Of a DNA stretch of 32,727 nt, positions 14,846-30,252 are shown piece after piece. Location: the NCBI GenBank assembly GCA_016649745.1, contig JAENXD010000008.1, positions 1 through 32,727 on the forward strand, given 5' to 3'. Each line of letters begins with the position of its first letter. Position 1 is the stretch's first letter. Origin of the DNA: Flavobacteriaceae bacterium (lineage in GTDB: Bacteria > Bacteroidota > Bacteroidia > Flavobacteriales > Flavobacteriaceae). The translations under genes were made by a program, and so were the position numbers. The notes under the pieces are model-generated. The model was not told where the DNA came from, ran no database searches, and worked only from the letters and a program-made list of their open reading frames with translations.

Positions 14846-16711
14846 TTATAATTTAGTTGTTAAAATAGTTAAACCCTTTGAATTGATTTCCAATGCATCT
14901 TTCCAAGAAAACACTTCTCCTGTTACAATATTTTTAACTTGTTTTCCTATTAAACCAACCTCTTCAAATCTGCTTAAATTTAACGAGATCGGATTTTCAT
15001 TTTTGTTCAATATTACCGTAACTATTTCGTCATTTTTAATTCTGAAAAGTATATAAACCCCATTTTCAGGCGCAAAATGAATTGTTTTTCCTGAATGGAT
15101 GGCTTCACTGTTTTTACGATAATTCAATACTTTCTTCAAAAACGACTGCATCTCTGCTTGTTCAGATGTTAAGCCTTCACCTGTAAAACCATTCGATTTA
15201 TCGTCCTTCCAGCCTCCGGGAAAATCTGTTCTTCTTAATCCGTCATCACCTAGTTTGGCACTATTTTCAATCAACACCTCGGTTCCATAATACAATTGAG
15301 GAATTCTTGGTAATACAAGCATATAACCCAATGCCATTTTGGTATTTACCACATTTTCTTTTAATTGGGTGAAGATCCTGTCCATATCGTGGTTGTCAGG
15401 AAATATCATTATTTTTTCCGGATTGGCATAAGAAAAATCGTTTGCCAAACCTTCATACATTTTCACAAAACCTTTGTCCCAACTTTCCGCTTCATTCAAT
15501 GCGTCAATAATTGATTTTTGCATGGGAAAATCCATGGTGGACGATAAATTTGAAACGTAGCCATCCTTATTTTTTGCGCCTTGCTGCCAATAGCCAACCA
15601 AAAGCGGATTGGTGCTCCACTCTTCTCCAACAATGCTGAAATTCGGATATTCTTTCATGATGGCTCCTGCCCAATCTGACATAAATTGTTTGTTTGGGTA
15701 CGGATAAGTATCTTGACGGATTCCACCCAAATCAAGCGTTTCAACCCACCAAATACTATTTTGAATGAGGTACTTAGCCAATAATGGATTTCTTTGATTT
15801 AAATCGGGCATTGAAGATGCAAACCAACCATTTGACATTTTTTCTTTATCAGTTCTTGAGGCATACAAATCTTGATTTGTTGTGCGTCTATGGTTTGAAT
15901 AGGTGGTTTCTTTATTGTTTTCAAAATTCTCTTGATAATTCACCCAATCTTTTGCCGGTAAATCTTTCATCCACCAATGTTCAATGCCAATATGATTTTC
16001 AACTTGATCCATGATTAATTTCATGCCTTTATTTTTGGCTTGTTGCGCCAAATCAATATAATCTTCCAAAGTTCCAAATCGAGGATCAACCTGATAGAAA
16101 TCGGTCATAGCATAGCCGTGATATGAACTTGATTTCATGTCATTCGTCAACACTGGCGTTGGCCAAATTGCCGTAAATCCCATTTGGTCTATGTAATCCA
16201 AATGGTCTGTGATTCCTTTTATATCGCCGCCATGCCTTCCATAATCATCCTTTCTGTTGACGGTTTTTTCGTTCATGGTTTTTACAACGTCATTGGTAAC
16301 ATCGCCATTTACAAAACGATCTGGCGTGATCAAATAAATAACATCCGAACTGTTAAACCCTTCCTTTAATTTTGAATCTTTATTTCGTTCTTTTAATTCA
16401 TATACCACAGAAAAATTATTGCGCTTTCCTTTTTTTGAAAAGTTGATGTTGAATTTCCCTGAAATTGCTTTGGACAAATCTAAATTCAGAAACAAATAAT
16501 TGCTGTTCTCTGTTTTCTTGATGCCCAAAATCTGTATGTTTTTATTGTTGACAGAAGGCGTAAATTGAGATATGTCTTTTCCGTAAATTAGCAATTCCAG
16601 TTGATTGTTCTCCATACCAACCCACCAATTTGGAGGTTCAATTCTATCGATTTTCTGGGCATATAATGTACTGCCTAAAGTTAATAGTATTAAGAAACAA
16701 ATATTTTTCAT
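14846..16711 (-). CDS. susA: GH13 neopullulanase/cyclomaltodextrinase, SusA-like
   Basis: This 621-aa enzyme matches the SusA architecture. It has a Sec signal ending LYAQ, an N-terminal cyclomaltodextrinase-type beta domain opening IDRIEPPNWWVGM (21-33; about 20-110), then the GH13 barrel and a C-terminal beta domain. Catalytic motifs are DQVENH (235-240), GGIRQDTYPY with nucleophile Asp334, IVGEEW with Glu363 and FPDNHDMDR with Asp442. The first residues of the mature protein resemble B. thetaiotaomicron SusA (RVEPLHWWTGM, from memory). SusA is periplasmic and cuts maltodextrins, cyclodextrins and pullulan to small sugars. There is no lipobox, so it is probably free in the periplasm. It starts 11 nt after maltose phosphorylase and is followed by the 255-nt gap with a repeat. 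Neopullulanase and cyclomaltodextrinase cannot be separated by sequence reading. Confidence 0.93.
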   Translation of the reverse strand: MKNICFLILLTLGSTLYAQKIDRIEPPNWWVGMENNQLELLIYGKDISQFTPSVNNKNIQILGIKKTENSNYLFLNLDLSKAISGKFNINFSKKGKRNNFSVVYELKERNKDSKLKEGFNSSDVIYLITPDRFVNGDVTNDVVKTMNEKTVNRKDDYGRHGGDIKGITDHLDYIDQMGFTAIWPTPVLTNDMKSSSYHGYAMTDFYQVDPRFGTLEDYIDLAQQAKNKGMKLIMDQVENHIGIEHWWMKDLPAKDWVNYQENFENNKETTYSNHRRTTNQDLYASRTDKEKMSNGWFASSMPDLNQRNPLLAKYLIQNSIWWVETLDLGGIRQDTYPYPNKQFMSDWAGAIMKEYPNFSIVGEEWSTNPLLVGYWQQGAKNKDGYVSNLSSTMDFPMQKSIIDALNEAESWDKGFVKMYEGLANDFSYANPEKIMIFPDNHDMDRIFTQLKENVVNTKMALGYMLVLPRIPQLYYGTEVLIENSAKLGDDGLRRTDFPGGWKDDKSNGFTGEGLTSEQAEMQSFLKKVLNYRKNSEAIHSGKTIHFAPENGVYILFRIKNDEIVTVILNKNENPISLNLSRFEEVGLIGKQVKNIVTGEVFSWKDALEINSKGLTILTTKL

Positions 16712-16722
16712 GGGTTGTTATT

Positions 16723-19035
16723 TTAGCATTGTACAGTGACTGATAGGTTCGCCGGAATTAAATTTTCTTGGCCATTCACCAACAATTTTATTTCATTTTC
16801 CGATTCATTAAAGAATTTACATTCGGTCTGACTTTTATAAACCTTGATGATATTTCCCCTAAAATTTATGGTAAAGGAGTACGATTTCCATTCTTTAGGT
16901 ATTTGCGGATTGAATGATAAAACGCCATCTTCCCAAATGCGCATTCCACCAAAACCTTGTACAATGGACATCCAGGTTCCTGCCATACTGGTAATGTGGC
17001 AACCCTCATGAACTTCGTGATTGTAATCGTCTAAATCCAAGCGTGAAGTTCTCACATATTGCTCGTAGGCTTTTGGCATTCTGTCTATGGAAGCCGCCAA
17101 AATTGAATGAACACAAGGAGAAAGTGAAGATTCATGAACCGTTAAAGGCTCATAAAAATCGAAATGGCGTTCTAAATCTTCCTTGTTGAATTTGTTTTCA
17201 AAAAAGAACATGCATTGCAAAACATCAGCTTGTTTGATATAACAAGAGCGCAAAATACGATCCCAAGACCATTTTTGGTTGATTGGTCTTTCAAAACTTG
17301 ACAGTTCAGCAGCCGGAATTAATTCCTTATCCAAAAATCCGTCCTGTTGTAAATATACATTGTATTCCAAACTAAAAGGAAAATACATTTTCTCGGCAAC
17401 CTTCAACCATTCTTTGATTTCTTCATCTGTTAATTTGGTTTTATCCAACACGCGTGAAAAATCTGAAGGATACTCTTTTTCAACCCTTTCTAAACATTCT
17501 ACCGCATATTGAATGCACCATTTTGCCAAATAGTTGGTGTAAAAATTATTATTTACATTATTTTCGTATTCGTTTGGACCGGTAACACCTAAAACCACAT
17601 ATTGGCCTTTTGCTTCAGAAAAATTAGCGCGTTGGTGCCAAAAACGTGCAACGGCAATGATAACTTCCAATCCAAATTTTGGGACATATTCAAAATCCTG
17701 GGTATAATTTACATAGTTGTAAATTCCGTAAATCATGGCTCCGTTTCTATGGATTTCTTCAAAAGTAATTTCCCATTCGTTGTGGCATTCTTCCCCATTC
17801 ATAGTAACCATTGGGTATAATGCCGCTCCGTTTTTAAACCCCAGTTTTTCAGCATTTTCGATGGCTTTGTCCAATTGATTATAGCGATACATCAATAAAT
17901 TTTTAGCAACACTTGCGTCTTTTGTTGCCATATAAAAAGGAATGCAGTACGCTTCCGTATCCCAATAAGTGCTTCCGCCGTATTTCTCGCCGGTGAAACC
18001 TTTCGGACCAATATTTAATCGGGCATCGGTTCCCAAATAAGTTTGATTTAACTGAAAAATATTAAATCGGATGCCTTGTTGCGCTCTTACGTCGCCTTCA
18101 ATAATAATATCCGCTGTGTGCCAAATGTTTGACCAAGAATTTTTTTGGCTTTCCAAAAGTTGAGAAAAGCCTAAATTATACGCCTTTTTAACATTGTTAA
18201 ATGCAGCATCAATCAAATCCTCTTTTTGATAATTTAAGGAACTTACGCAACTGCCATATTTATAGATTGTGGCAGTATCACCTTTGGAAACAGGTAACTT
18301 ATAGGTATAATGCAAAGATTTCTCTTCAACCTTAGTTTGTTGTGCAATCTCAACTTTTTTATCATTTAAAGTAAACGAAACTTCCATCGCTGTTGCCACA
18401 TAAAATTCTGTTTTTAACGTTTTCGAAAGAATACATCCATTATTTTGGCCATTGACAATTTTCTGTATTTCCCAAAAATATTCGTCGTAATTGGAATCTT
18501 CATTCACAATACCGGCATCTATATAAGGAGAAAAAGAAATTTCACCTGAAAAATTTATTGCTTTTACGGTGTATTCAATAGCGCCTATTTCATTGTATTC
18601 CAAACTTATAAAACGCTTTGTTTCTACTTGAATTTCCTCACCAGTTTTAAGAATTGCAAGAAAAGAACGGCTAAGCCAGCCTTCTTTCATATTTAATTCC
18701 CTTTTGAAATTTGAAACTTGACAGGAATTTAAATCCAGTTCGGTATCATTAACTTTTATTTGAATACCAATCCAATTTGGGGCATTCAGCACTTTGGCAA
18801 AATACTCCGGATAGCCATTTTTCCACCACCCAACTCTCGTTTTATCTGGATAATAAATACCTCCAATATAACTTCCCTGAAAGGTTTTTCCTGAATAGTC
18901 TTCTTCAAAATTGGCACGTTGGCCCATAGAGCCATTTCCTATACTGAACAAACTTTCTGAGGCTTCCACATTTGAGGCATCAAATCCTTCTTCTACAATT
19001 GACCATTCGTAAGGCTTAATATAATCTTTATTCAT
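16723..19035 (-). CDS. GH65 maltose phosphorylase
   Basis: The predicted reaction is maltose plus phosphate to glucose plus beta-glucose-1-phosphate. The 770-aa protein has no signal peptide, so it is cytoplasmic. An N-terminal beta-sandwich (about 10-270) leads through a linker to an (alpha/alpha)6 barrel. The barrel includes YWDTEAYCIPF (357-367) and the strongly conserved YPMVTMNGEECHNEWEIT (407-424), which holds the acid Glu region of the family. VHESSLSPCVHS further on matches the phosphate-binding loop expected of a phosphorylase and not of a GH65 hydrolase. The GEECHNEWEITFEE block is the form I know from maltose phosphorylases; kojibiose, nigerose or trehalose phosphorylases differ there. 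The neighbour pgmB, 4 nt upstream, uses its product. Together they save one ATP per maltose compared with hydrolysis and phosphorylation of both glucoses. Confidence 0.94.
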   Translation of the reverse strand: MNKDYIKPYEWSIVEEGFDASNVEASESLFSIGNGSMGQRANFEEDYSGKTFQGSYIGGIYYPDKTRVGWWKNGYPEYFAKVLNAPNWIGIQIKVNDTELDLNSCQVSNFKRELNMKEGWLSRSFLAILKTGEEIQVETKRFISLEYNEIGAIEYTVKAINFSGEISFSPYIDAGIVNEDSNYDEYFWEIQKIVNGQNNGCILSKTLKTEFYVATAMEVSFTLNDKKVEIAQQTKVEEKSLHYTYKLPVSKGDTATIYKYGSCVSSLNYQKEDLIDAAFNNVKKAYNLGFSQLLESQKNSWSNIWHTADIIIEGDVRAQQGIRFNIFQLNQTYLGTDARLNIGPKGFTGEKYGGSTYWDTEAYCIPFYMATKDASVAKNLLMYRYNQLDKAIENAEKLGFKNGAALYPMVTMNGEECHNEWEITFEEIHRNGAMIYGIYNYVNYTQDFEYVPKFGLEVIIAVARFWHQRANFSEAKGQYVVLGVTGPNEYENNVNNNFYTNYLAKWCIQYAVECLERVEKEYPSDFSRVLDKTKLTDEEIKEWLKVAEKMYFPFSLEYNVYLQQDGFLDKELIPAAELSSFERPINQKWSWDRILRSCYIKQADVLQCMFFFENKFNKEDLERHFDFYEPLTVHESSLSPCVHSILAASIDRMPKAYEQYVRTSRLDLDDYNHEVHEGCHITSMAGTWMSIVQGFGGMRIWEDGVLSFNPQIPKEWKSYSFTINFRGNIIKVYKSQTECKFFNESENEIKLLVNGQENLIPANLSVTVQC

Positions 19036-19039
19036 TTTC

Positions 19040-19696
19040 TTAATTCATTAGATTTTTTAAAAAATCGGGTGTAATGGCGGTCATGTCTTTAAAAACATAA
19101 TCTGCTTCCTTTAACACCTTAGCATCTCCAATTCCTATACTTATCATTTTTGCTGTATTTGCAGCTTGTATCCCAGCAATGGCATCTTCAACAACCACGC
19201 AGTTTTCAGGATTCATCCCTAATTTTTTGGCCCCAATTAAAAATACTTCCGGATCGGGTTTCGCTTTAGAAACATCATTTCCGTCCACAATGGCCGTAAA
19301 CCTGTGTAAAAGCCCTACTTTCTCCAAAATTAATGGTGCGTTTTTACTTGCCGAACCAAGCGCGTATTTTATATCATTAACCTCTAAAAAATTCAACAAG
19401 TCATTTACACCTGGTAAAATTTCATCTGCTGTCATTTTATTGACATACTCCAGATATTCTTTATTTTTTTGAAGCAAAAGGGCTTGTTTTTTTTCTTCAG
19501 GTAATTTAATTTTGCCAATTTCCAACAAAATCTCGAGCGATTTAACCCTGCTCACCCCTTTCAACAATTCATTTTGTTCTTCGGTAAAATCGAAATTCAA
19601 AGCGTTCGCCAAATTTCTCCAAGCCAAATAGTGGTACTTTGCCGTATCCACTATTACGCCATCTAAATCAAATATAAATGCGAGTTCTTTTTTCAT
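19040..19696 (-). CDS. pgmB: Beta-phosphoglucomutase
   Basis: PgmB converts beta-glucose-1-phosphate to glucose-6-phosphate. The 218-aa HAD-superfamily protein has FDLDGVIVDT (9-18), with Asp10 as nucleophile and Asp12 as acid/base. The cap-domain motif LKGVSR (45-50) is specific to beta-phosphoglucomutases. SASKN (115-119), KPDP with Lys146 and the metal-binding VVEDAIAG (168-175) complete the set. Length is normal and there is no signal peptide. It lies 4 nt upstream of maltose phosphorylase, the enzyme that makes its substrate, so the pair is certainly co-expressed. The spacer before it holds the CCTGCCTGC repeat. Confidence 0.96.
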   Translation of the reverse strand: MKKELAFIFDLDGVIVDTAKYHYLAWRNLANALNFDFTEEQNELLKGVSRVKSLEILLEIGKIKLPEEKKQALLLQKNKEYLEYVNKMTADEILPGVNDLLNFLEVNDIKYALGSASKNAPLILEKVGLLHRFTAIVDGNDVSKAKPDPEVFLIGAKKLGMNPENCVVVEDAIAGIQAANTAKMISIGIGDAKVLKEADYVFKDMTAITPDFLKNLMN

Positions 19697-19832: not shown

Positions 19833-21188
19833 TTAACTCTTTATTATTACAGCATCATCAACATCTTTTACTCTCACAACCAACACTGCCGCAATTAAAA
19901 ATGAAATTCCACTAACAACTAATGCATAAATGGCATCGCCGCCATAAAAATATTTCACCATTGGCCCGCCTATTAAAGCATTTATAATTTGAGGAATTAC
20001 AATAAAGAAATTAAATATCCCCATATAAACGCCCATTTTTTTAGGTGGAATTGACCCTGCCAAAATAGCATAAGGCATCGCTAAAATACTTGCCCAGGCA
20101 ATTCCTACGCCAAGCATAGACAGAATTAACCAATTTTCATTGGGCATAAAATAAACTGAAATCAATCCGATACCACCAACAACCAATGAAAAGGCATGCG
20201 TCTTTTTTCTTCCAATCTTTTTGGCAATAGCCGGTAAAAAGAAAGCGTAAACAGCTGAAACCGCATTGTAAACACCAAATAAAATACCCACCCAGTCACC
20301 TGCAATATTATAGGCAAGGCTATGTGAATCATCTAATGCCAATCCGTAAATATGATGAGCAATTGCAGGCGTTGCAAACACCCACATCCCAAATAAACCG
20401 AACCATGAGAAAAACTGAACCGAGCTTAATTGTCGCATCGTTAAAGGCATTTTCTTAAAATCGGAGAATATATTCAACAAACTCGATTTTTCTTCAACTT
20501 CAGATTCTTCATGTTTTGAATCCACTGGAAATTGAGCAACTTCTTCAGGCGAATATTCTTTTGTTGTAAAAACGGTGATTAGAATACTTATGACTAAAAC
20601 CGCCGCACCAATAATAAAGGAGAGTATTAAATTTGTTGGTACTTCTCCAGGTTCTGCTTCATTTAAAACGCCAAACCAATTTGTTAACACATAAGGCAAC
20701 CAAGAGCCTATAACTGCTCCAATACCAATTAAAATTGTTTGAACACTAAATCCGAGCGTCCTTTGATCTGAAGGCAAAATATCGGCAACCAAAGCCCTAA
20801 AAGGTTCCATGGCCACGTTAAATGATGCATCCATAATCATCAACATCCCGGCACCTACCCATAAGGATGGCATAATAGCTATAAACATGTCAGCGTTTGG
20901 CATTAAAACCAACCCAACAGAAGCCAATAATGCACCCGTTAAAAAATAGGGACGTCTTCGACCAAGTTTGGTCCAGGTTCTATCGCTGTAATACCCTATT
21001 ATAGGCTGAACTATTAAACCTGTTAAAGGAGCAACAATCCAAAACCAAGACAATTCATGAACATCGGCTCCAAAATTTTGCAATATTCTACTGGCATTGG
21101 CATTTTGCAGCGCAAAACCCATTTGAATTCCCAAGAAACCGAAACTCATGTTCCAAATATCCCAGAAACTTAGTTTCCGTTTTTCCAT
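19833..21188 (-). CDS. MFS sugar transporter, SLC45/GPH-like, probable maltose carrier
   Basis: This 451-aa protein has about 12 hydrophobic segments and no cleavable signal, so it lies in the inner membrane. After the second segment it carries GYYSDRTWTKLGRRRPYFLTG (about 64-84), a match to the SDR...GRRRPY loop of the sucrose/maltose-proton symporters of the SLC45/GPH group. The first segment region, NMSFGFLGIQMGFALQNANASR, is also typical of the group. An acidic central loop (SKHEESEVEEKSS) splits the two halves. It is first in the operon that continues to pgmB and maltose phosphorylase, so maltose or short maltodextrins are the likely cargo. The leader holds one copy of the operator-like motif (21368-21381). 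Transported sugar is inferred from context. Confidence 0.9.
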   Translation of the reverse strand: MEKRKLSFWDIWNMSFGFLGIQMGFALQNANASRILQNFGADVHELSWFWIVAPLTGLIVQPIIGYYSDRTWTKLGRRRPYFLTGALLASVGLVLMPNADMFIAIMPSLWVGAGMLMIMDASFNVAMEPFRALVADILPSDQRTLGFSVQTILIGIGAVIGSWLPYVLTNWFGVLNEAEPGEVPTNLILSFIIGAAVLVISILITVFTTKEYSPEEVAQFPVDSKHEESEVEEKSSLLNIFSDFKKMPLTMRQLSSVQFFSWFGLFGMWVFATPAIAHHIYGLALDDSHSLAYNIAGDWVGILFGVYNAVSAVYAFFLPAIAKKIGRKKTHAFSLVVGGIGLISVYFMPNENWLILSMLGVGIAWASILAMPYAILAGSIPPKKMGVYMGIFNFFIVIPQIINALIGGPMVKYFYGGDAIYALVVSGISFLIAAVLVVRVKDVDDAVIIKS

Positions 21189-21271
21189 AATGTAAATGTT
21201 AAAAATATTAATACAAGCTAAAGCCCATAAGTTTTAGTTGTTATTTTTGTGTGAAGTGTGAAAATAGTACA

Positions 21272-21289
21272 TGTAAAATCTCTTTTACA
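21272..21289. other. Small hairpin in the leader of the MFS operon
   Basis: TGTAAAATCTCTTTTACA is a perfect 7-bp inverted repeat with a TCTC loop, about 85 nt upstream of the MFS start codon. It may affect mRNA stability or be a protein site; no further evidence is visible. Confidence 0.3.
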
Positions 21290-21367
21290 GGGCGAATATA
21301 TAAATTATTTTTTAACTTTTAATTTTTTTTATGCTACGATTTAAGCCGAAATATAACAAATCGAGTA

Positions 21368-21381
21368 CTCTAACCTTTGCG
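21368..21381. promoter_or_regulatory. Candidate LacI-family operator in front of the MFS operon
   Basis: CTCTAACCTTTGCG matches 13 of 14 bases of the site at 22633-22646. It lies about 180 nt upstream of the MFS start, in the 262-nt spacer after the regulator gene. It falls between weak minus-strand promoter-like boxes (TTTG complement at 21388-21391; TCGATTTG complement at 21357-21364), where a bound repressor could block initiation. The central CG of the other copies is CC here. Confidence 0.5.
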
Positions 21382-21450
21382 CTCAATCAAATTTTTTTTG
21401 TAATTGATAAATTTAATAGGAGAATTGCTGTTAAAATCTTAAAAACATTT

Positions 21451-22476
21451 TTAATTCACTGACAAGGTGGATTTTCTAATTTTTAGATTTGTAGAAATAA
21501 CTACTTTTTGAAATTCGGCAGGTGCTGTATTCTCAATTCTATTTATTAATAATTCGGCCGCTTGTTTTCCCATTAAGAACCCGTGTTGTTCAACGCAAGT
21601 TAATGGCGGATAGGTAAATTCTGAAATCAATCCGCTGGTAAAACCTATAATGGCAATTTCTTTAGGGATATTCAGTCCTTTTTCTTTCGCTAATTTTAAA
21701 GCTATCGCTGCGTATATTTCGTTAACGGCCAAAATGGCGTCGGGTGGGTTTGCAACATTGATAACCTTTTCAATTTGTTCATATAAATCCTTTTCATCGT
21801 CTATTTTATAAATCAAACTTTCATCCACTTTAATTCCTTGACTTGTAAGCGCTTTTAAATACCCTTCCTTTCGTAATGAGCCCACCGTAATAAAATCATG
21901 AGTTGTTATTAATGCGATGCGCCTTGAACCAATTTCAATTAAATGGTTTGTCGCTTTAAAGGCACCTCCTATGTCGTCAATAATCACTTTATCACATTGA
22001 ATTTCATCATTAATTCTATCAAATAACACCAACGGAAAATCATCAGAAATTAATGCCTCAAAATGTTTGAAATTTTGATTTTGTTGTGTTTCTCTTGCGA
22101 TTGATACAATTAATCCGTCCACACTTCCATTAGTGAGCACTCCCATGTTTGAAACCTCTTTTTCGTAAGACTCATTGGATAAGCATACCATAACATTGTA
22201 TCCTTTTTCCGTGGCATATTTTTCAATTCCGTTGATTACCGTCGAAAAAAAATGATGAACAATTTCGGGAATAATAACTCCTATTACTGAAGTTTTTTGG
22301 TTGCGAAGCTGTAAAGCTAAATTGTTTGGCTTGTAGTGATAATAATCTGCGAAAGCCTTAATTTTCCCTCTTGTTTCTTCACTAATTTCATGACTGTCCT
22401 TTAATGCTTTTGAAACCGTTGAAATAGATACTCCAAACTCTTTTGCAATCTTTTTTAAGGTAATTCTTGGTTTCAT
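21451..22476 (-). CDS. LacI/GalR-family transcriptional regulator
   Basis: This 341-aa regulator has an N-terminal LacI helix-turn-helix, ITLKKIAKEFGVSISTVSKAL (about 5-25), and a hinge region KPNNLALQLR (about 50-60). A periplasmic-binding-protein-like effector domain follows (about 62-335: VIGVIIPEIVHHFFSTVINGIE, DGLIVS, LVLFDR, AIIGFTSG). It lies between the leftward MFS/hydrolase operon and the rightward susC operon and is the only regulator in the window. It therefore probably controls both in response to maltose or a maltodextrin. B. thetaiotaomicron uses the unrelated membrane sensor SusR for this role, so a soluble LacI protein is the alternative wiring. Whether it represses or activates cannot be read. 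No terminator follows it, so readthrough into the MFS operon is possible. Confidence 0.94.
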   Translation of the reverse strand: MKPRITLKKIAKEFGVSISTVSKALKDSHEISEETRGKIKAFADYYHYKPNNLALQLRNQKTSVIGVIIPEIVHHFFSTVINGIEKYATEKGYNVMVCLSNESYEKEVSNMGVLTNGSVDGLIVSIARETQQNQNFKHFEALISDDFPLVLFDRINDEIQCDKVIIDDIGGAFKATNHLIEIGSRRIALITTHDFITVGSLRKEGYLKALTSQGIKVDESLIYKIDDEKDLYEQIEKVINVANPPDAILAVNEIYAAIALKLAKEKGLNIPKEIAIIGFTSGLISEFTYPPLTCVEQHGFLMGKQAAELLINRIENTAPAEFQKVVISTNLKIRKSTLSVN

Positions 22477-22502
22477 TTTTATGAGCTAAAGTATATGTTC
22501 TA

Positions 22503-22510
22503 CAAATATA
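22503..22510 (-). promoter_or_regulatory. Candidate -7 box for the LacI-family regulator
   Basis: On the minus strand the bases read TATATTTG, an exact match to the Bacteroidota -7 consensus TAnnTTTG, 26 nt upstream of the regulator's start codon. The upstream -33 box is weak (TCTG, 17 nt away). A start here would leave a leader of about 20 nt. Confidence 0.35.
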
Positions 22511-22632
22511 AACTTTATACTTAAAAACAGAAAGGTTTAAAGAAGAACAATTGGAGAAACTTCGGTTTAAAATTCGAAAAATTGACTTAATAGGGGCTAA
22601 ACGAACAAAACCTTAGAAATAAAACCTTGAAA

Positions 22633-22646
22633 CTCTAACGTTTGCG
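22633..22646. promoter_or_regulatory. Candidate LacI-family operator 1 upstream of susC
   Basis: CTCTAACGTTTGCG has a central CG and shares the right half CGTTTGCG with the site at 22664-22677. The two centres are 31 bp apart, close to three turns of the helix, so two dimers would bind on one face. It lies about 155 nt upstream of the susC start. Confidence 0.55.
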
Positions 22647-22663
22647 TAAAAAAGTTATAAACA

Positions 22664-22677
22664 CGAAAACGTTTGCG
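22664..22677. promoter_or_regulatory. Candidate LacI-family operator 2 upstream of susC, near-perfect palindrome
   Basis: CGAAAACGTTTGCG is a 14-bp palindrome with a single mismatched pair (A/G at the third positions from each end) around a central CG. It is the form typical of LacI/GalR/CcpA operators such as TGAAAACGTTTTCA. It ends 14 nt before a promoter-like TATGCTTG, so occupancy would overlap the promoter region of susC. Confidence 0.6.
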
Positions 22678-22690
22678 GAGCTTTAATAAT

Positions 22691-22698: not shown

Positions 22699-22714
22699 TC
22701 ATTGTTAAATAAAT

Positions 22715-22741
22715 GTTAAGTCCTTAACTTCACAAAGTGAA
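22715..22741 (+). other. Two adjacent small inverted repeats in the susC leader
   Basis: GTTAAGTCCTTAAC (22715-22728, 6-bp arms, TC loop) is followed directly by TTCACAAAGTGAA (22729-22741, 5-bp arms, AAA loop), ending 59 nt before the susC ATG. They could protect the 5' end of a highly expressed mRNA or bind a protein. There is no T tract, so they are not a terminator. Confidence 0.4.
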
Positions 22742-22800
22742 ATGTAATAAAATAGTACAAATTTTTAAAACAAACTTAATTATTAATTAACTTAAAATAG

Positions 22801-25797
22801 ATGAAAAATTTTAAATTTTATTTGTTTAATGTCATGCTTCTTTTACCTGTAGTGCTATTTGCCCAGCAAACCGTTAAAGGAAAAGTTACGGAAGCAACAG
22901 GTGGTACAGCACTTCCTGGAGTTGGCGTTATTATTAAAGGAACTACTATAGGTACCGCAACAGATTTTGACGGAAACTTTACTATAGAAAATGTTAAACC
23001 TGAAGATGTTTTAGTATTCTCTTATATAGGATTCACTACACAATCAGTTACTGTAGATAACAATACAACTGTTAATGTTGCTTTATCAGAAAGTGCTGAA
23101 ACTTTAGATGAACTTGTTATTATTGGTTATGGATCAGTCAAAAAGAAAGACAAAACTGGGGCAGCCGTCAAAATTTCTGCTGATGATCTAAATCAAGGTA
23201 CACTTGTAGATCCTATCCAAGCAATTCAGGGTAAAGCAGCTGGTGTTAGTGTTACCAAACAAGGAGGTGACCCAAACTCAGGTTTTAATGTAAGAATTAG
23301 AGGTGCCGCTGGTTTTGCAGCTGGAGGTGACCCTTTATATGTTGTTAATGGTGTTAGAGGAGTAGATATTACTACCATTGCTCCTGAAGACATTACTTCA
23401 TTTGATATATTAAAAGATGCAGCCTCTACAGCGATATATGGTGCAGATGGTGCAAATGGTGTTGTATTTATAACCACAAAATCTGGGGTAAAAGGAAATG
23501 CTAAAATTGAATATAATACGTATGTTGCTTTAGATGAAGTTTCTAATAAATTAGGTCTTCAATCTGCAAAAAGTTACAGAGATTATATTGATGCAAACCA
23601 AGATAAATACGGTGACTTTAATGATGCCGGAGGTAATGTTGATTGGCAAAATGAAGTATACAGACCAGGTATAACTTTAAACAATAATTTAGCAATTTCA
23701 GGAGGTTCTGAAACTAGTAATTATAGAGCTTCTATAACTAATACAGATTTTGAAGGAGTAATTAATGGTTCTAATAAAAATAGAACTACTGGTAGATTAG
23801 ATTTGAATCAAAAATCTTTTGACGACAAATTAAATATTACCATGGGTATGTCTGCTTCCATAGAAAAAAACGAATATATTAATTATGGAAGTAATGAACC
23901 TACTGATGCATTATTTCAATCTTTTCAAAGACTCCCAACAGATCCTATTTATAATGCCGATGGTAGTTATTTTGAAACAACAAGAGTATTTAACTACTAT
24001 AACCCAGCAGCAAGTTTAAATCAAATTCAAAATGAAAGAGATGCAAAAAAATACACAGGAAATTTAGGTTTAGATTATACTTTTATTGAAGGTTTAAATG
24101 GAGTTGTAAACTTAAGTTATTTAAGAAACGATAGTGAGTCTACTTATTTTGAACCCAGATACAGCAATACAATTGGAACACAAAATACGCTGATAAGAGC
24201 TGGTTACGGTAAAAGATCTTATGAAAACTGGGCACAAGGAATGCTTGAAGGAACCTTAACTTATAAGAAAACTTTTAACGATGTTCACAACCTTACTGCT
24301 TTAACTGGTTATTCATACAGAAAACAAAATTGGGATGGATTCTTAGCAGAAGGAAGAGAACCTATTTCAAACTCATTAGGAGCAGATAAACTTCAAAATT
24401 TTGAAGATGTTCAATTAGGTGATCTAGAATCATACAAAGGTGATAGAACCGATATTGGCGTTTTTGCACGTGCTATGTACGATTATAATTCAAAATATTA
24501 TTTAACTGCGATGATTCGAAGAGATGGATCATCAGTTTTTGGAGATAACAATCAATGGGGTTGGTTCCCTTCAGTTCAAGTCGCTTGGAATATGGCTAAC
24601 GAAGACTTTATTAAAAATAACAGTCAGTTCATCAACTTATTAAAGTTAAGAGCCAGTTGGGGTATTTCAGGTAACAGTAACATTGATAGCTATCTGTCTT
24701 ATTTAAGAGTTGGTCCTTCTGAAACTTCTTCAATTGATCCTGTAACAGGAGACCCAATTGTAAATTTAGATTATTATAATAATGGAAACCCAGATTTAAA
24801 ATGGGATGAAAACGAAGAAATTAACTTAGGTTTAGATTTTGGAGTTTTAGACAACAGAATTTCAGGTTCCTTGGAATACTATTCTAAAAAAATAACAGAT
24901 ATGTTATCGGTTTATGATGTACCGACTGAAACAAATTATGCCGGAAAAATTTATTATAATGGCGGAGAAATGAAAAACTCAGGTTTTGAAGCAACATTAA
25001 TTGGAAAAGTATTTAATTCCGATAATTTTAAATGGAATACTACATTTACTTTCTCCAAAAACAATATGGAAGTCGTATCTCTTGATGGTGGAAAATATGA
25101 TTTGGCTTATAGAGATGTTGGATATATTTCAGCTCCAGGTATTGTTGGTGTTGCAACACAACGTATGCTACCGAAACATGATTTAGGAACTTTCTTTGGT
25201 TTTGAATATGCTGGAGTTAGTGAAGAAGGAAAGTGGTTAATTAAAGGTAATGACAATGAAATTTATTATTTAGATGATGTTTCTCAATCTGATTTACATA
25301 AAAAACCAATTGGAAATGCATTACCTGATTTTGAAATGGGATGGAGCAATAATTTGAACTATAAAGATTTTGATTTAAGCATGTCATTTAGAGCTGTTGT
25401 AGGCAATGATATTTACAATGCTACCAAGCAAGTTTTTGGTAACCCTGATTATATTACTCAAAGAAACGTACTTGATGAAGCATTTGCTTTAGACGGATAT
25501 GTTAGTGGAGCTTACCAAGCCTTAAGTTATTATATTGAAGATGGAAGTTTTATTAAATTAGATAATGTAAACTTAGGATATACATTCCCAAAAACCATCT
25601 TTAAAAATATAGGTAAACTAAGAGTCTATACATCCATAAATAATGTATTTACTTTAACAAATTATGATGGAATAGACCCTGAAGTTAACTTTAGTGGAGG
25701 AGATAAAGATAAAGGTGAAATTTATTTTGGTATAGATCAATATAATATTTATCCAAAAACGCGTACAATTACTTTTGGTATAAACGTTGAATTATAA
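22801..25797 (+). CDS. susC: SusC/RagA-family TonB-linked outer-membrane transporter
   Basis: SusC proteins are 22-strand outer-membrane barrels that import glycan oligomers with energy from TonB, with a SusD lid on top. The 998-aa protein has a Sec signal (LPVVLFAQ, cleavage near 21) and a carboxypeptidase-regulatory-like domain (about 23-98: VKGKVTEATGGTALPGVGV, DFDGNFTI, VFSYIGF). The TonB-box-like region ETLDELVIIGYGSVKKKDKTGA is followed by the plug (about 115-230: DPIQAIQGKAAGVSV, AASTAIYGADGANGVVFITTKSG) and a barrel ending INVEL. It is the first gene of susCDEF and the amylase, behind two operator-like sites. The starch/maltodextrin substrate is inferred from the surrounding GH13, GH31, GH97 and GH65 genes. 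SusD starts 10 nt after its stop. Confidence 0.97.
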   Translation: MKNFKFYLFNVMLLLPVVLFAQQTVKGKVTEATGGTALPGVGVIIKGTTIGTATDFDGNFTIENVKPEDVLVFSYIGFTTQSVTVDNNTTVNVALSESAETLDELVIIGYGSVKKKDKTGAAVKISADDLNQGTLVDPIQAIQGKAAGVSVTKQGGDPNSGFNVRIRGAAGFAAGGDPLYVVNGVRGVDITTIAPEDITSFDILKDAASTAIYGADGANGVVFITTKSGVKGNAKIEYNTYVALDEVSNKLGLQSAKSYRDYIDANQDKYGDFNDAGGNVDWQNEVYRPGITLNNNLAISGGSETSNYRASITNTDFEGVINGSNKNRTTGRLDLNQKSFDDKLNITMGMSASIEKNEYINYGSNEPTDALFQSFQRLPTDPIYNADGSYFETTRVFNYYNPAASLNQIQNERDAKKYTGNLGLDYTFIEGLNGVVNLSYLRNDSESTYFEPRYSNTIGTQNTLIRAGYGKRSYENWAQGMLEGTLTYKKTFNDVHNLTALTGYSYRKQNWDGFLAEGREPISNSLGADKLQNFEDVQLGDLESYKGDRTDIGVFARAMYDYNSKYYLTAMIRRDGSSVFGDNNQWGWFPSVQVAWNMANEDFIKNNSQFINLLKLRASWGISGNSNIDSYLSYLRVGPSETSSIDPVTGDPIVNLDYYNNGNPDLKWDENEEINLGLDFGVLDNRISGSLEYYSKKITDMLSVYDVPTETNYAGKIYYNGGEMKNSGFEATLIGKVFNSDNFKWNTTFTFSKNNMEVVSLDGGKYDLAYRDVGYISAPGIVGVATQRMLPKHDLGTFFGFEYAGVSEEGKWLIKGNDNEIYYLDDVSQSDLHKKPIGNALPDFEMGWSNNLNYKDFDLSMSFRAVVGNDIYNATKQVFGNPDYITQRNVLDEAFALDGYVSGAYQALSYYIEDGSFIKLDNVNLGYTFPKTIFKNIGKLRVYTSINNVFTLTNYDGIDPEVNFSGGDKDKGEIYFGIDQYNIYPKTRTITFGINVEL

Positions 25798-25807
25798 TAT
25801 AAAGAAA

Positions 25808-27319
25808 ATGAAATATATATATAAAATTGCAATCGTACTTATAGCTAGTTTTTCGCTATACAATTGCACAGAATTAGAGAGTGAAATTTCAGATTTTATT
25901 CCAGGAGATCAATACCCTGAAAATTCGGCACAAGCTATTCGAGTTGCTAACCCTGTATTCACAAAAACCCAAAGCATGTTAGATGGTGGCGGATGGTGGT
26001 TTCTTCAAGAAGTTCCCAGTGATGAGGCTGTAGCTCCAACAAGAGGTGCTGACTGGGATGACGGTGGAAAATGGCGTGTTTTACATACACATACTTGGGG
26101 AACTAATACTGAGGCCATTAACCAATTATGGGGATTAATTTATGACGCCGTTCCAAGAGCCAATAGAGCAATTGAGTTATTGGAAGTAAATGCAGAAAAC
26201 CCAGAAGTTACTACCGTATTAGCACAAACAATCGTTGCTAGGGCATATTATTACTATTTGGCTATTGACAATTATGGTGATGTACCGTTCCCTAGAACTT
26301 TCACAAATGCTGATGAGTTTCCATCTAGAACACCAAGAGCAGAAGTTTTTCAAACCATTGTTCAAGATATATTAGATAATATTGACAATCTTCCAACCCC
26401 TACACCTGGTGTAGCTTCAAGTTCGGTAAATAAAGGAACTGCTTATGCTTTATTAGCAAAATTATATTTAAATGCTGAAGTATATACAGGAACTCCAATG
26501 TGGACAGAAACCATTGATGCGTGTAATGATCTTATGAGCTTAGGTTATACCTTAGAAGGAAATCCATTAGCTCCTTTTGTTACAGATAATGGTGCTTCTA
26601 AAGAAAATATCTATACAATCGCTTATGATGAGAATAAATTCACTGGGTTTAATATTCATATGAGAACCTTGCATTATTTATCTCAACAAACATTTAATAT
26701 GGATGTTGCTCCGTGGAATGGTTTTGCTATTTTGGAAAGCACATACAACCTATTTGGAAATTCAGATTTAAGAGCCGACGGATTATTAGTTGGGCAACAA
26801 TATGCTAAAGATGGCACTGAAATTATTGATGATGTTGTTGGTGCAAATTTAATTTTAACGCCTACTATTCCTGCGTTATTAATAGATGCAAACACTTATA
26901 CTTTAAATGAAATTCGTAATTCAGGTGTTCGTGTGGCCAAATGGGAAATAAAAGAAGGTGCTAAAGGAAATTTGAGCAATGACTTTGCAATTTTTAGATT
27001 GGCAGATTTTAAATTAATGAAAGCAGAAGCGCTAGTGCGATTAAATGGAAATGGAGCCGGTGATGCTTTAGTAAATGAGATTAAGCTGAGATCTAATGCA
27101 ACAATTACAGGGAATTATTCACTTCAAGATATCCTAGATGAAAGAGGAAGAGAATTATTATGGGAAGGCGCACGAAGACAAGATTTAATTCGATTTGGAA
27201 AATTCAATAATGCTTGGTGGGAAAAAAACACTTCAGCTGTAACTAGAAATATTTTCCCTGTGCCTCAATTTGCAATAAATGCAAATAATAATTTATTGCC
27301 TCAAAACCCAGGATACTAA
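25808..27319 (+). CDS. susD: SusD/RagB-family surface glycan-binding lipoprotein
   Basis: SusD forms the lid of the SusC pore and binds the glycan at the cell surface. I use the ATG at 25808 (503 aa); the track's start at 25787 is a TTG that would add NYNIKK in front of the signal peptide. The lipobox is LYNC (Cys20), followed by TELESEISD, an acidic stretch consistent with the lipoprotein export signal for surface display. TPR-like helices (NQLWGLIYDAVPRANRAIELLE; RAYYYYLAIDNYGDVPFPR) and the C-terminal SusD motif ILDERGRELLWEGARRQDLI (near 441-460) are clear. It begins 10 nt after susC and is 16 nt before susE. Confidence 0.96.
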   Translation: MKYIYKIAIVLIASFSLYNCTELESEISDFIPGDQYPENSAQAIRVANPVFTKTQSMLDGGGWWFLQEVPSDEAVAPTRGADWDDGGKWRVLHTHTWGTNTEAINQLWGLIYDAVPRANRAIELLEVNAENPEVTTVLAQTIVARAYYYYLAIDNYGDVPFPRTFTNADEFPSRTPRAEVFQTIVQDILDNIDNLPTPTPGVASSSVNKGTAYALLAKLYLNAEVYTGTPMWTETIDACNDLMSLGYTLEGNPLAPFVTDNGASKENIYTIAYDENKFTGFNIHMRTLHYLSQQTFNMDVAPWNGFAILESTYNLFGNSDLRADGLLVGQQYAKDGTEIIDDVVGANLILTPTIPALLIDANTYTLNEIRNSGVRVAKWEIKEGAKGNLSNDFAIFRLADFKLMKAEALVRLNGNGAGDALVNEIKLRSNATITGNYSLQDILDERGRELLWEGARRQDLIRFGKFNNAWWEKNTSAVTRNIFPVPQFAINANNNLLPQNPGY

Positions 27320-27335
27320 TTAAAACTATATTAAA

Positions 27336-28511
27336 ATGAAAAAATTAAAATTTATACTAATATTACTTTTATCCATAAGTATTTGGTCATGCGAGGATGA
27401 TGATGCCGATATCGATATTTTTCCGTCTGAAACTGTTGAAGGAGTTGCAGTGTTAAATACACCTAACGTAATTGACTTTGAAATTACGGAAACCACAGAT
27501 GTTGTTGTTGGAAACGAAAATGAAATAGCGACAACTTTTACGTGGTCTAAGGTAACGGGAAATTATAATGGTTCTATACTTTATTTTCTTGAAATGGATA
27601 TAAAAGGAAATAACTTTAAAAATGGCGTTTATGCACCTTTAGGCAGTCAAGGAACTACTGAATTATCTAAAGAAATCAGTAATAGCGACTTAAACTTAGC
27701 CGTAAATGCTATTAACACCCAACTTGTCACATTAGGTTCTGCATTAAAGGTTGACTTTTCAACTGCCACTGAATTTGATATAAGAGTTGTTAGTGTTGCC
27801 GATATTTCTAAAGATAAAAGTTTTTCAGAACCAATCACAATCAACATAAATGCTTACGAAAAAATAGTTGTTATTGAACCACAATTATTTATTGCAGGTT
27901 CAGTTCAATCATATTATGGCAAAAGTAATTGGAATCCAGAACAAGGTCTAGAAATGAGATACATTGGTGATGGAACTACAAAAGTTTTTGAAGCTTATCT
28001 AAAGGCAACCGAAGGTGATATCTTTAAATTTATTTCAAATCAAGCAGTTTGGGATAATGTAGTGGGCAATTATGGTGTTATTGATGGTGCGCAGGATGGT
28101 AATTTGATCAATAGTAGCGATAGTGGAAATATTGAAATTCCTGAGGAAGGACAATATTATATAAAAGTTGATATTGATAATCTAACTTATAAATTGATTA
28201 AAATGCAATGGGGAGTTATTGGTAATGCCACACCTAATGGTTGGGATGGAGAAACGCCTATGACATACGATTTTAACACAAATACTTGGGAAATTACACT
28301 AAGCTTAACTGATGGTGAAGTTAAATTCCGTTCCAAATCGTTATCCAACGCAGTTTTTGGTGCTGGAGAAGAGTGGATCTGGAAGTTTAATGTTGGAACA
28401 AATTTAAACGCCTGGGATGAAGGTGAAGGAAACTTTGTCGTTAGTGCTGGAAGCGCATCACTTACACTTAAAATTGGATTTAAAGGTGATGCTGTTGTTA
28501 CTGGTATTTAA
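27336..28511 (+). CDS. SusE-like surface starch-binding lipoprotein
   Basis: This 391-aa lipoprotein has lipobox IWSC (Cys19) followed at once by EDDDADID, a textbook acidic surface-export signal. Residues about 45-175 form the SusE N-terminal immunoglobulin-like domain (TTFTWSKVTGNYNGSI at 66-81). Two beta-sandwich binding modules follow, about 183-289 (LFIAGSVQ...NWNPEQG, FKFISNQAVWDN) and about 292-391 (WGVIGNATPNGWDGETPM, VKFRSKSLSNAVFG). Trp199, Trp239, Trp303 and other aromatic residues could stack on glucose rings. SusE-type proteins hold starch chains outside the cell and have no enzyme activity. The first domain aligns without gaps to that of the next gene, so the two arose by duplication. 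It sits in the susCDEF run, 16 nt after susD. Confidence 0.9.
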   Translation: MKKLKFILILLLSISIWSCEDDDADIDIFPSETVEGVAVLNTPNVIDFEITETTDVVVGNENEIATTFTWSKVTGNYNGSILYFLEMDIKGNNFKNGVYAPLGSQGTTELSKEISNSDLNLAVNAINTQLVTLGSALKVDFSTATEFDIRVVSVADISKDKSFSEPITININAYEKIVVIEPQLFIAGSVQSYYGKSNWNPEQGLEMRYIGDGTTKVFEAYLKATEGDIFKFISNQAVWDNVVGNYGVIDGAQDGNLINSSDSGNIEIPEEGQYYIKVDIDNLTYKLIKMQWGVIGNATPNGWDGETPMTYDFNTNTWEITLSLTDGEVKFRSKSLSNAVFGAGEEWIWKFNVGTNLNAWDEGEGNFVVSAGSASLTLKIGFKGDAVVTGI

Positions 28512-28533
28512 TATTTAAAATAAAACATATAAT

Positions 28534-30252
28534 ATGAAAAAATTAATTTATATACTAATCGCTGTATTTGCAGTTACTGTAGCCTGTGAATCAGATGAAG
28601 TAACTATTAACACAATAAATGCTTCGGAAGCAGATCTAATTGCTGCTGAATTAGATGTGCCGGCAACAAATACGTTCGAAGTAATAAGAACTACCGATTT
28701 AGTGCAAGGAAATGAAGCAGCAGATGCAGTAACTTATACTTGGTCTAAGGCATCTGGTGATAATGATGGCGCTATAATGTACTACTTGCAACTGGATGTT
28801 GCAGGCAATGATTTTGCAACAGCAGTGACAATTCCTTTGGCTCAAGAAGGAACTTCGGAACTTTCTCGTACATTAACATTTGGTGATTTAAATAAAGCTG
28901 TCAATAAAATAAGCAGTAATTTATTTGCAATAGCATCTCCGCTGTCAATTAACTTTGAAGATGTAAACAACATGGAAATTAGGGTTGAAAGCATCTTGGG
29001 AGTGTCCATTGCCAAAGCATATTCACAACCAATTCCACTAACTGTAAAAGCCTATTTTTCAGGCTTAACAAATGATTTAGTTGTAAGTGGTGCTGCTTTA
29101 AATGAAGACGTTATTATCACAATTGCTGATGGTGTTTATAAAGGAAGGTTAAATTTAACTCAAAATACATTCAGGTTTTTTGCTCAGCCAGCTGATACAA
29201 ATGTTAGTTACAATTATGAGTATTTTGAATCTGATGGATATACAATCGATCCTTTATTGGAAAATGCAAATGATGAAAAAATGAATTTCAAGTTTACGGG
29301 TGCTGAAGGTCCTTGGGATATTTTTATTGACACTAATCTAAAATCTATTACCTTAGTGGAAGTAACAATACCTGATAACCTTTATATCGTAGGTAACAAT
29401 ACAAGTCCAGAATGGAACCCAGCAATTTCCCCTGAAATGAATTTAGTTAGCGAAGGCGTTTTTGTATTGGTTATTGAGCTTCAAGGAGTCTCTGACGGTT
29501 TTAAATTTATTCCAACTAATGCAAGTTTTGATGGAGATTGGGGCGAAGATCCCGCTAACCCAGGTCACATTATTCAAGATGGTGAACAAAATCTTACTGG
29601 ATATGAGGCTGGAAAATATTTAGTTACTGTTGATTATAACACGTTAACTTATAAAGTAACGGTGGTAAATAGTTTAAATGTTGTTGGATCTATTAACGGA
29701 TGGAATAGTACTACTGCCACACCTATGGTCGAGGCAAGCTTAGGAATTTACTCAATTGTTTTAGATTTACCAGTTGGAGCTGAATTTAAGTTTATACCAA
29801 CTACTGCAAGTTTTGAAGGTGACTGGGGTGCTGATGCCGCTAATGCCGGTAGAATTATCCAAGACGGAGAAGCTAACTTGTCTGGCTATGAAGCCGGCAA
29901 ATACGTTGTTGCAGTAAACTATAACACAATGAGTTTTACTGTTTCAAAAATTAGTGCAATTCCAACAAATTTATATTTAGTGGGTGATCATAATGGTTGG
30001 AACAATGCAACAGCAAATCAACTTACAAATGTAAGCTCTGGTGTTTTCTCTATTACATTAAACTTAAGTGCTGGTAATGGCTTTAAATTTTTACCGACAC
30101 AAGGATCTTGGGATGGTGATTTTGGGGAAAATAAATTAATTCCTCAAACATTAGTGCAAAATGACGAGCAAAATTTATCAGTTGCTGCTGATGGATCATA
30201 TAAAATTACAGTCGATTTTAATAATGGAAACTTTTCTGTAGTTTTACAATAA
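28534..30252 (+). CDS. SusF-like surface starch-binding lipoprotein with three tandem modules
   Basis: A 572-aa lipoprotein with lipobox TVAC (Cys18), then ESDE, an acidic surface-export signal. Domain order: a SusE-type N-terminal domain (about 45-175, TYTWSKASGDNDGAI at 67-81) and a divergent beta module (about 180-278). Three related starch-binding modules follow at 283-377, 381-472 and 479-572. Each has a VG...WN start, an FKF(I/L)PT strand and a D(W/F)G turn. The aromatic residues in these repeats are likely glycan contacts. It has one more module than the neighbouring SusE-like protein, like the SusE/SusF pair of B. thetaiotaomicron. It starts 22 nt after the previous gene and is followed by a strong terminator. 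There is no catalytic domain. Confidence 0.9.
   Translation: MKKLIYILIAVFAVTVACESDEVTINTINASEADLIAAELDVPATNTFEVIRTTDLVQGNEAADAVTYTWSKASGDNDGAIMYYLQLDVAGNDFATAVTIPLAQEGTSELSRTLTFGDLNKAVNKISSNLFAIASPLSINFEDVNNMEIRVESILGVSIAKAYSQPIPLTVKAYFSGLTNDLVVSGAALNEDVIITIADGVYKGRLNLTQNTFRFFAQPADTNVSYNYEYFESDGYTIDPLLENANDEKMNFKFTGAEGPWDIFIDTNLKSITLVEVTIPDNLYIVGNNTSPEWNPAISPEMNLVSEGVFVLVIELQGVSDGFKFIPTNASFDGDWGEDPANPGHIIQDGEQNLTGYEAGKYLVTVDYNTLTYKVTVVNSLNVVGSINGWNSTTATPMVEASLGIYSIVLDLPVGAEFKFIPTTASFEGDWGADAANAGRIIQDGEANLSGYEAGKYVVAVNYNTMSFTVSKISAIPTNLYLVGDHNGWNNATANQLTNVSSGVFSITLNLSAGNGFKFLPTQGSWDGDFGENKLIPQTLVQNDEQNLSVAADGSYKITVDFNNGNFSVVLQ
29380..30249 (+). repeat. Three tandem starch-binding module repeats within the SusF-like gene
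   Basis: The modules cover protein residues 283-377, 381-472 and 479-572. The first two share FKFIPT, ASF-GDWG, IIQDGE-NL-GYEAGKY and a V-YNT strand. Their codons differ at many third positions, so the duplication is old and kept under protein-level selection. The third keeps FKFLPT, GSWDGDFGE and DEQNLSV but lacks the GYEAGKY loop. Confidence 0.85.

Follow-up and report, generated by a model that had tools for sequence, protein, structure and literature searches.

Conserved operator-like motifs beside a LacI-family regulator gene at a flavobacterial starch locus, with a layout suggestive of activation

The maltodextrin locus and its putative operators

The DNA analysed here (the window) is a stretch of 32,727 nucleotides from a member of the Flavobacteriaceae. 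Judging from gene content and domain searches, it is a maltodextrin utilisation locus with two divergent arms (Table 1). On the plus strand susC and susD are followed by two SusE/F-like genes and by a reading frame cut by the window end, which we read from its sequence as amylase-like. On the minus strand lie, in this order, lacI and the genes for an MFS transporter, beta-phosphoglucomutase, GH65, GH13, GH31, GH13, GH97 and GH13 enzymes, and then PFK and GAPDH. Named relatives place the genome in the genus Lutibacter. In the Lutibacter set (30 genomes, this one and 29 relatives) lacI is flanked by the MFS gene and susC wherever the contig is long enough.

The lacI product has the N-terminal HTH and the C-terminal periplasmic-binding-protein-like domain of the LacI/GalR family (PF00356, PF13377, and PF00532, all above cut-off), and its full-length PDB matches include CcpA, PurR and LacI, the first two being among the nearest solved structures. 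No NCBIfam equivalog scored above its cut-off for this protein, which by score is neither a CcpA (TIGR01481, 151.9 bits vs. a cut-off of 442.35) nor a member of the MalI subfamily (NF007449, 110 bits vs. 310). Its identity in the 29 Lutibacter relatives is 73–90%, and among 100 orthologs the residues S19, T20, and S22 and the hinge leucine L57 are invariant, with K23 present in 99.

An earlier note on this DNA had pointed to three copies of an operator-like motif, at 21368, 22633, and 22664, and the sequences are found exactly at these positions. The two copies on the susC side are 31 bp apart from start to start, as described, and the near-perfect 14-bp palindrome reported among the three, CGAAAACGTTTGCG, has six of its seven pairs symmetric. 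The note's author noticed no other copy in the window, which needs a small correction, given a weak match (CGCAAACCTTCGCG, 9011–9024) inside the GH97 gene. Operator A is asymmetric in this genome, whereas 11 of the 30 Lutibacter genomes have ACTCTAACGTTAGAGT in its place, 16 bp long and perfectly palindromic; in those 11, as in the consensus of operator B (ACGAAANCGNTTTCGT), the site has the form of an operator, that is, an even palindrome of ca. 14–16 bp with a central CpG. The MFS-side copy often carries CC/GG in place of the central CG within the same set. Both the central CG and the conserved hinge leucine of the regulator fit LacI-family binding.

Short degenerate motifs do arise randomly, and with one weak extra copy in a coding region it might be argued that the likeness of the three motifs is a matter of chance or a by-product of base composition. 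We rejected this explanation, which we consider vanishingly improbable, on finding the motifs conserved across relatives; their spacing and rarity likewise rule it out. With up to three mismatches CTCTAACGTTTGCG has seven matches in the window vs. 1.4 expected, a number reached by none of 100 shuffles, and the strict core WAACSTTTGCG has nine sites in the 3.1-Mb draft genome, three of them within the 1.3-kb stretch that carries the three motifs. The looser 14-mer (the union motif) has fewer strand-hits in genome G000 than the same motif reversed as a control (27 vs. 54). The motif is therefore rare and essentially confined to a single locus, rather than common and randomly placed in the genome, the latter being an outcome that the earlier note had named as fatal to its proposal.

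Table 1. Features of the locus, with window coordinates; operators are putative and promoter elements are inferred from consensus.
Feature	Position	Strand	Evidence and remarks
Beta-phosphoglucomutase, GH65 phosphorylase-type enzyme, GH13 cyclomaltodextrinase-type enzyme	14846..19696	-	bPGM TIGR01990 5.5e-70; GH65 domains; Alpha-amylase and Cyc-maltodext domains
MFS sugar transporter, catabolic operon gene 1	19833..21188	-	Pfam MFS_1 3.9e-33; orthologs downstream of lacI in most relatives
Inferred MFS operon -7 box TATATTCG (TATATTTG in most relatives)	21293..21300	-	TAnnTTTG-type consensus
MFS operon operator (putative), sense strand GCGCAAAGGTTAGAGT	21367..21382	-	Centre ca. -86.5; 26/30 genomes
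LacI/GalR-family regulator, 341 aa	21451..22476	-	HTH, hinge, sugar-binding core; Pfam LacI 1.5e-11, Peripla_BP_3 1.2e-27
Operator A (putative), ACTCTAACGTTTGCGT	22632..22647	+	Centre ca. -97 from inferred susC start; 30/30 Lutibacter genomes
Element C, AAAGTTATAAAC (family consensus AAAGTTNTNAAC)	22651..22662	+	Always abuts B at susC; near-invariant columns in 98 distinct promoters (collected by means of a pattern that takes in part of C and of B)
Operator B (putative), ACGAAAACGTTTGCGG (family consensus ACGAAANCGNTTTCGT, central CG)	22663..22678	+	Centre ca. -66.5; 30/30 Lutibacter genomes, most Flavobacteriaceae lacI-susC gaps examined
Possible -33 TTG of susC promoter	22702..22704	+	Weak element; in many species the TTG has an offset of 38 from B
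Inferred susC -7 box TAACTTCA	22725..22732	+	Start near 22737; 94/98 promoters have TAnnTTYR 50-51 or 59-61 bp from the start of B
susC, susD, two SusE/SusF-like proteins	22801..30252	+	TIGR04056 2.8e-222; SusD_RagB, SusE, SusF_SusE domains

Conservation in Lutibacter and across the Flavobacteriaceae

Both susC-side copies are present in all 30 Lutibacter genomes, 31 bp apart in 29 of them and 30 bp apart in one. The MFS-side copy was found in 26, the other four having a contig end, a short gap or a different MFS gene. Since SusC itself diverges to ca. 40% identity across this set, the sites have not been retained simply because the whole segment stayed the same. Besides, the distance from B to susC is steady (126–141 bp, sd 4.5) and that from B to lacI is variable (162–586 bp, sd 105), and B therefore belongs to the susC promoter. 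At orthologous susC and MFS promoters, where the earlier note had proposed to look, the motif is thus conserved and its spacing fixed.

Adding named Flavobacteriaceae loci, we could trace the susC-proximal site to Lutimonas, Flavicella, Tenacibaculum, Polaribacter, Aureibaculum, Sediminicola, and Aquimarina, and the tandem arrangement of A and B at 31–32 bp is also present in Lutimonas, Flavicella and several further relatives. In the family consensus B is directly preceded by AAAGTTNTNAAC (element C). The core of C and B together, AAGTTNTNAACACGAAANCG, gave 30 exact matches in the 398 genomes of the order that were searched, in 28 genomes of 18 genera, all of them Flavobacteriaceae; the reversed control had no match, nor had the 320 genomes sampled from other families. 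As many as 27 of these matches sit between a lacI relative and susC; one of the other three precedes a reading frame that looks like a GH57-type gene and two belong to a single type of Tenacibaculum locus. In four of four Lutibacter genomes C and the left half of B form a single-copy sequence, even with one mismatch allowed. We also gathered a set of 98 distinct promoters, in which the columns of C and B are no unbiased measure of conservation, because the collection pattern covers part of both. The conserved element to which the susC-proximal site belongs is larger than the site itself and far older than Lutibacter, and we regard the identity of the motif as well supported.

Some of these matches have features of their own. 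The reading frame that follows the element in another genus of the family (G356; L171, 1500–1660) reads, from its sequence, as a GH57-type amylase and is a possible extra member of the regulon. In two Tenacibaculum genomes (L192 and L193, ca. 1500–2150, reverse strand of the locus) C and the left half of B precede a conserved untranslated leader, followed by a small reading frame that carries an ISGG motif, is rich in cysteine at its end and looks like a secreted or modified peptide, and then by a gene of 290 aa; an Rfam search of these Tenacibaculum loci gave no match. Within element C lies TTATNAACA (TTTTCCACA in Aquimarina), whose likeness to a DnaA box is probably coincidental.

Promoter geometry and mode of action

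The flavobacterial sigma-A promoter has a -7 box, TAnnTTTG, at -12 to -5 (PMC9723704). All distances to boxes and transcription starts given here rest on -7 boxes that were inferred from this kind of degenerate consensus. In the set of 98 promoters a TAnnTTYR box is found 50–51 bp from the start of B in 40 cases and 59–61 bp from it in 54, vs. a chance expectation of ca. 0.5 per offset; of the remaining four promoters, one has its box in between and three have none. The two classes are intermixed on the LacI tree, with at least nine changes between them (the tree was built by a fast method and some of its forks are weak), and therefore insertions or deletions of about one helical turn have been repeatedly accepted and half-turns have not. 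At the MFS promoter, where element C was looked for and is absent, the centre of the site lies 72.5–75.5 bp from the -7 box in 26 out of 26 cases. Measured from the inferred starts, the centres are at ca. -56 or -66 (B), -97 (A) and -86 (MFS site), all of them near one face of the helix.

Both target operons share a leader sequence, GTGAAGTGTGAAAATAGTA / GTGAAATGTAATAAAATAGTA (window 21250–21269 and 22737–22757), in the same genomic orientation and kept across Lutibacter; elsewhere in four genomes the motif GTGAARTGTGAAAAATAGTA of this leader was no more frequent than the control. An inverted repeat, TGTAAAATCTCTTTTACA (21272–21289), lies where the MFS operon transcript should begin; many species retain it, with differences in the loop, and it could form a 5' stem-loop.

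Given the inferred -7 boxes, the operators lie upstream of the promoter core and in a fixed helical phase, which would suit an activator better than a classical LacI-type roadblock. On balance we favour the view that the three motifs serve as operators for the LacI-family regulator encoded next to them and that it most probably activates susC and the MFS operon. The neighbouring protein is their likely binder, and joint control of import through susC and of the MFS/phosphorylase operon by this protein, whose gene lies between them, would be the most economical reading; the activator role is what we infer from the geometry. The regulator, which we presume to be dimeric and to have the CcpA/PurR/LacI fold, would bind A and B upstream of susCDEF and the single site upstream of the MFS-phosphorylase operon. 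Occupation of its sugar-binding domain by a maltodextrin-derived ligand would lead to activation, the bound protein contacting RNA polymerase or a partner at AAAGTTNTNAAC. As the sites are upstream of the inferred sigma-A promoter and the helical face to the -7 box is kept, activation by contact is the most likely mode. Retention of the motif in ca. 100 bacteria related to this one, at set distances from the promoter, suggests that the neighbouring LacI-type protein turns starch use on from these sites and does not merely block it.

Sugar-specific LacI-family proteins are mostly repressors, and from this general experience the protein without sugar might be expected to bind A, B, and the MFS site and block transcription until maltodextrin releases it, a possibility that we find rather doubtful here but take seriously. 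None of the sites overlaps the inferred promoters, and the 10-bp jumps leave the phase to the -7 box unchanged, both of which speak against a block. Variants would be a loop joining both promoters, perhaps, or interference with an activator at AAAGTTNTNAAC. E. coli LacI loops DNA by means of a tetramerisation tail; the regulator lacks this tail, because it ends at residue 341 and leaves no room for one, which counts against the loop. In favour of interference, a LacI-type site placed upstream can repress by getting in the way of an activator, the lev operon of B. subtilis being an example (PMC3463425), and element C could be the site of such a blocked activator.

A different question is whether a second LacI-family protein binds some of these sites. 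A LacI relative whose recognition helix (VSISTVSKAL) is identical to that of the local regulator is encoded in most of these genomes, also in Lutibacter genomes with no close local-lacI ortholog, and ACGAWAACGTTWTCGT-type sites precede eno and pckA in two Lutibacter genomes. Moreover, the same site is found in a closely similar sequence context in a genome (G005) where a close local-lacI ortholog was not found. Thus B might be the site of a global relative that also controls eno and pckA, with A and the MFS site alone belonging to the local regulator. We consider this improbable, since B with element C is almost exclusive to the neighbourhood of the local lacI (the 27 of 30 matches above), and three genomes (G138, G204, and G324) have the element and the local lacI with no second close relative at E<=1e-60. 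The eno sites, in turn, are without element C and 56–57 bp from their box, outside the 50 and 60 classes. The persistence of B in those three genomes and the different make-up of the eno sites make the local regulator the more likely binder. Shared binding by both proteins is possible, as relatives with the same helix exist and similar palindromes precede eno and pckA.

The palindromes in question, ACGATAACGTTTTCGT and CGAAAACGTTTTCG, lie before the genes for enolase (L060/L048) and a PEP carboxykinase-like protein (L054/L051), near position 1501 of these loci and at G005:C232:2490 (Lutibacter). At the Lutibacter PEP carboxykinase-like gene a second copy follows ca. 72 bp further on. They suggest a global LacI relative acting on glycolysis and gluconeogenesis. 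An MFS-type promoter with an A-type site is also found at a contig edge in the genome with no close local-lacI ortholog found (G005:C37:1–400, L195), possibly owing to an assembly gap.

Comparison with known regulators

The palindrome is nearly the same as the E. coli PurR box, ACGCAAACGTTTGCGT, to which the site of Aquimarina muelleri is identical. PurR is a repressor of purine genes that works with a purine corepressor, and its recognition helix differs from that of the regulator described here.

Activation by CcpA goes with upstream cre sites and its action depends on the face of the helix (PMC3463425). The arrangement at the starch locus is like that of CcpA and cre at ackA, pta and ilvB of B. 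subtilis (PMC3463425) in its presumed LacI-family dimer, its central-CG palindrome, its upstream site and its apparent dependence on the helix face. Full activation of ackA by CcpA also needs a conserved sequence just upstream of the operator (PMC3463425), which recalls the element C. However, CcpA is a global regulator with HPr-Ser-P as a partner, whereas the one described here is local, beside the sus locus of a member of the Bacteroidota with a different sigma-A promoter. Along similar lines, AraQ and MalR1 of Bifidobacterium breve are LacI-family proteins with sites upstream at whole-turn increments, inferred to activate several genes, but their targets are the central metabolism and sugar uptake of an actinobacterium, with no sus genes involved (PMC6882875).

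A survey of the LacI family includes a single Bacteroides group as its only one from the Bacteroidota (PMC4052901), and no published LacI starch regulon in flavobacteria was found in the literature searched. As far as that literature shows, neither the operator nor its phasing has been described, i.e., a LacI-type operator set in an activator layout on a sus locus. The regulation of flavobacterial polysaccharide loci is little characterised; a regulatory element that is close to single copy is now defined across the family, including Polaribacter and Tenacibaculum, and the natural series of 10-bp spacing changes makes the question of activation directly testable.

The system with the same target is SusR of Bacteroides thetaiotaomicron, an activator that responds to maltose and likewise controls susC-type starch operons (PMC3878776). 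Unlike the regulator described here, SusR is a membrane protein with another DNA-binding domain, and the sites predicted for it are direct repeats with a spacing of 67 or 77 bp (PMC3878776). SusR-type regulation is not what is seen at this locus, where the adjacent regulator is of the LacI family and the sites are palindromes 31 bp apart. More tentatively, one could propose that in Flavobacteriaceae the main starch-uptake promoter is directly switched on by a cytoplasmic LacI-family protein and a second DNA-binding protein, at a helix-phased composite of AAAGTTNTNAAC and operator, in place of the membrane-bound SusR of Bacteroides. The starch system of these bacteria seems to be under a kind of regulator other than the textbook SusR.
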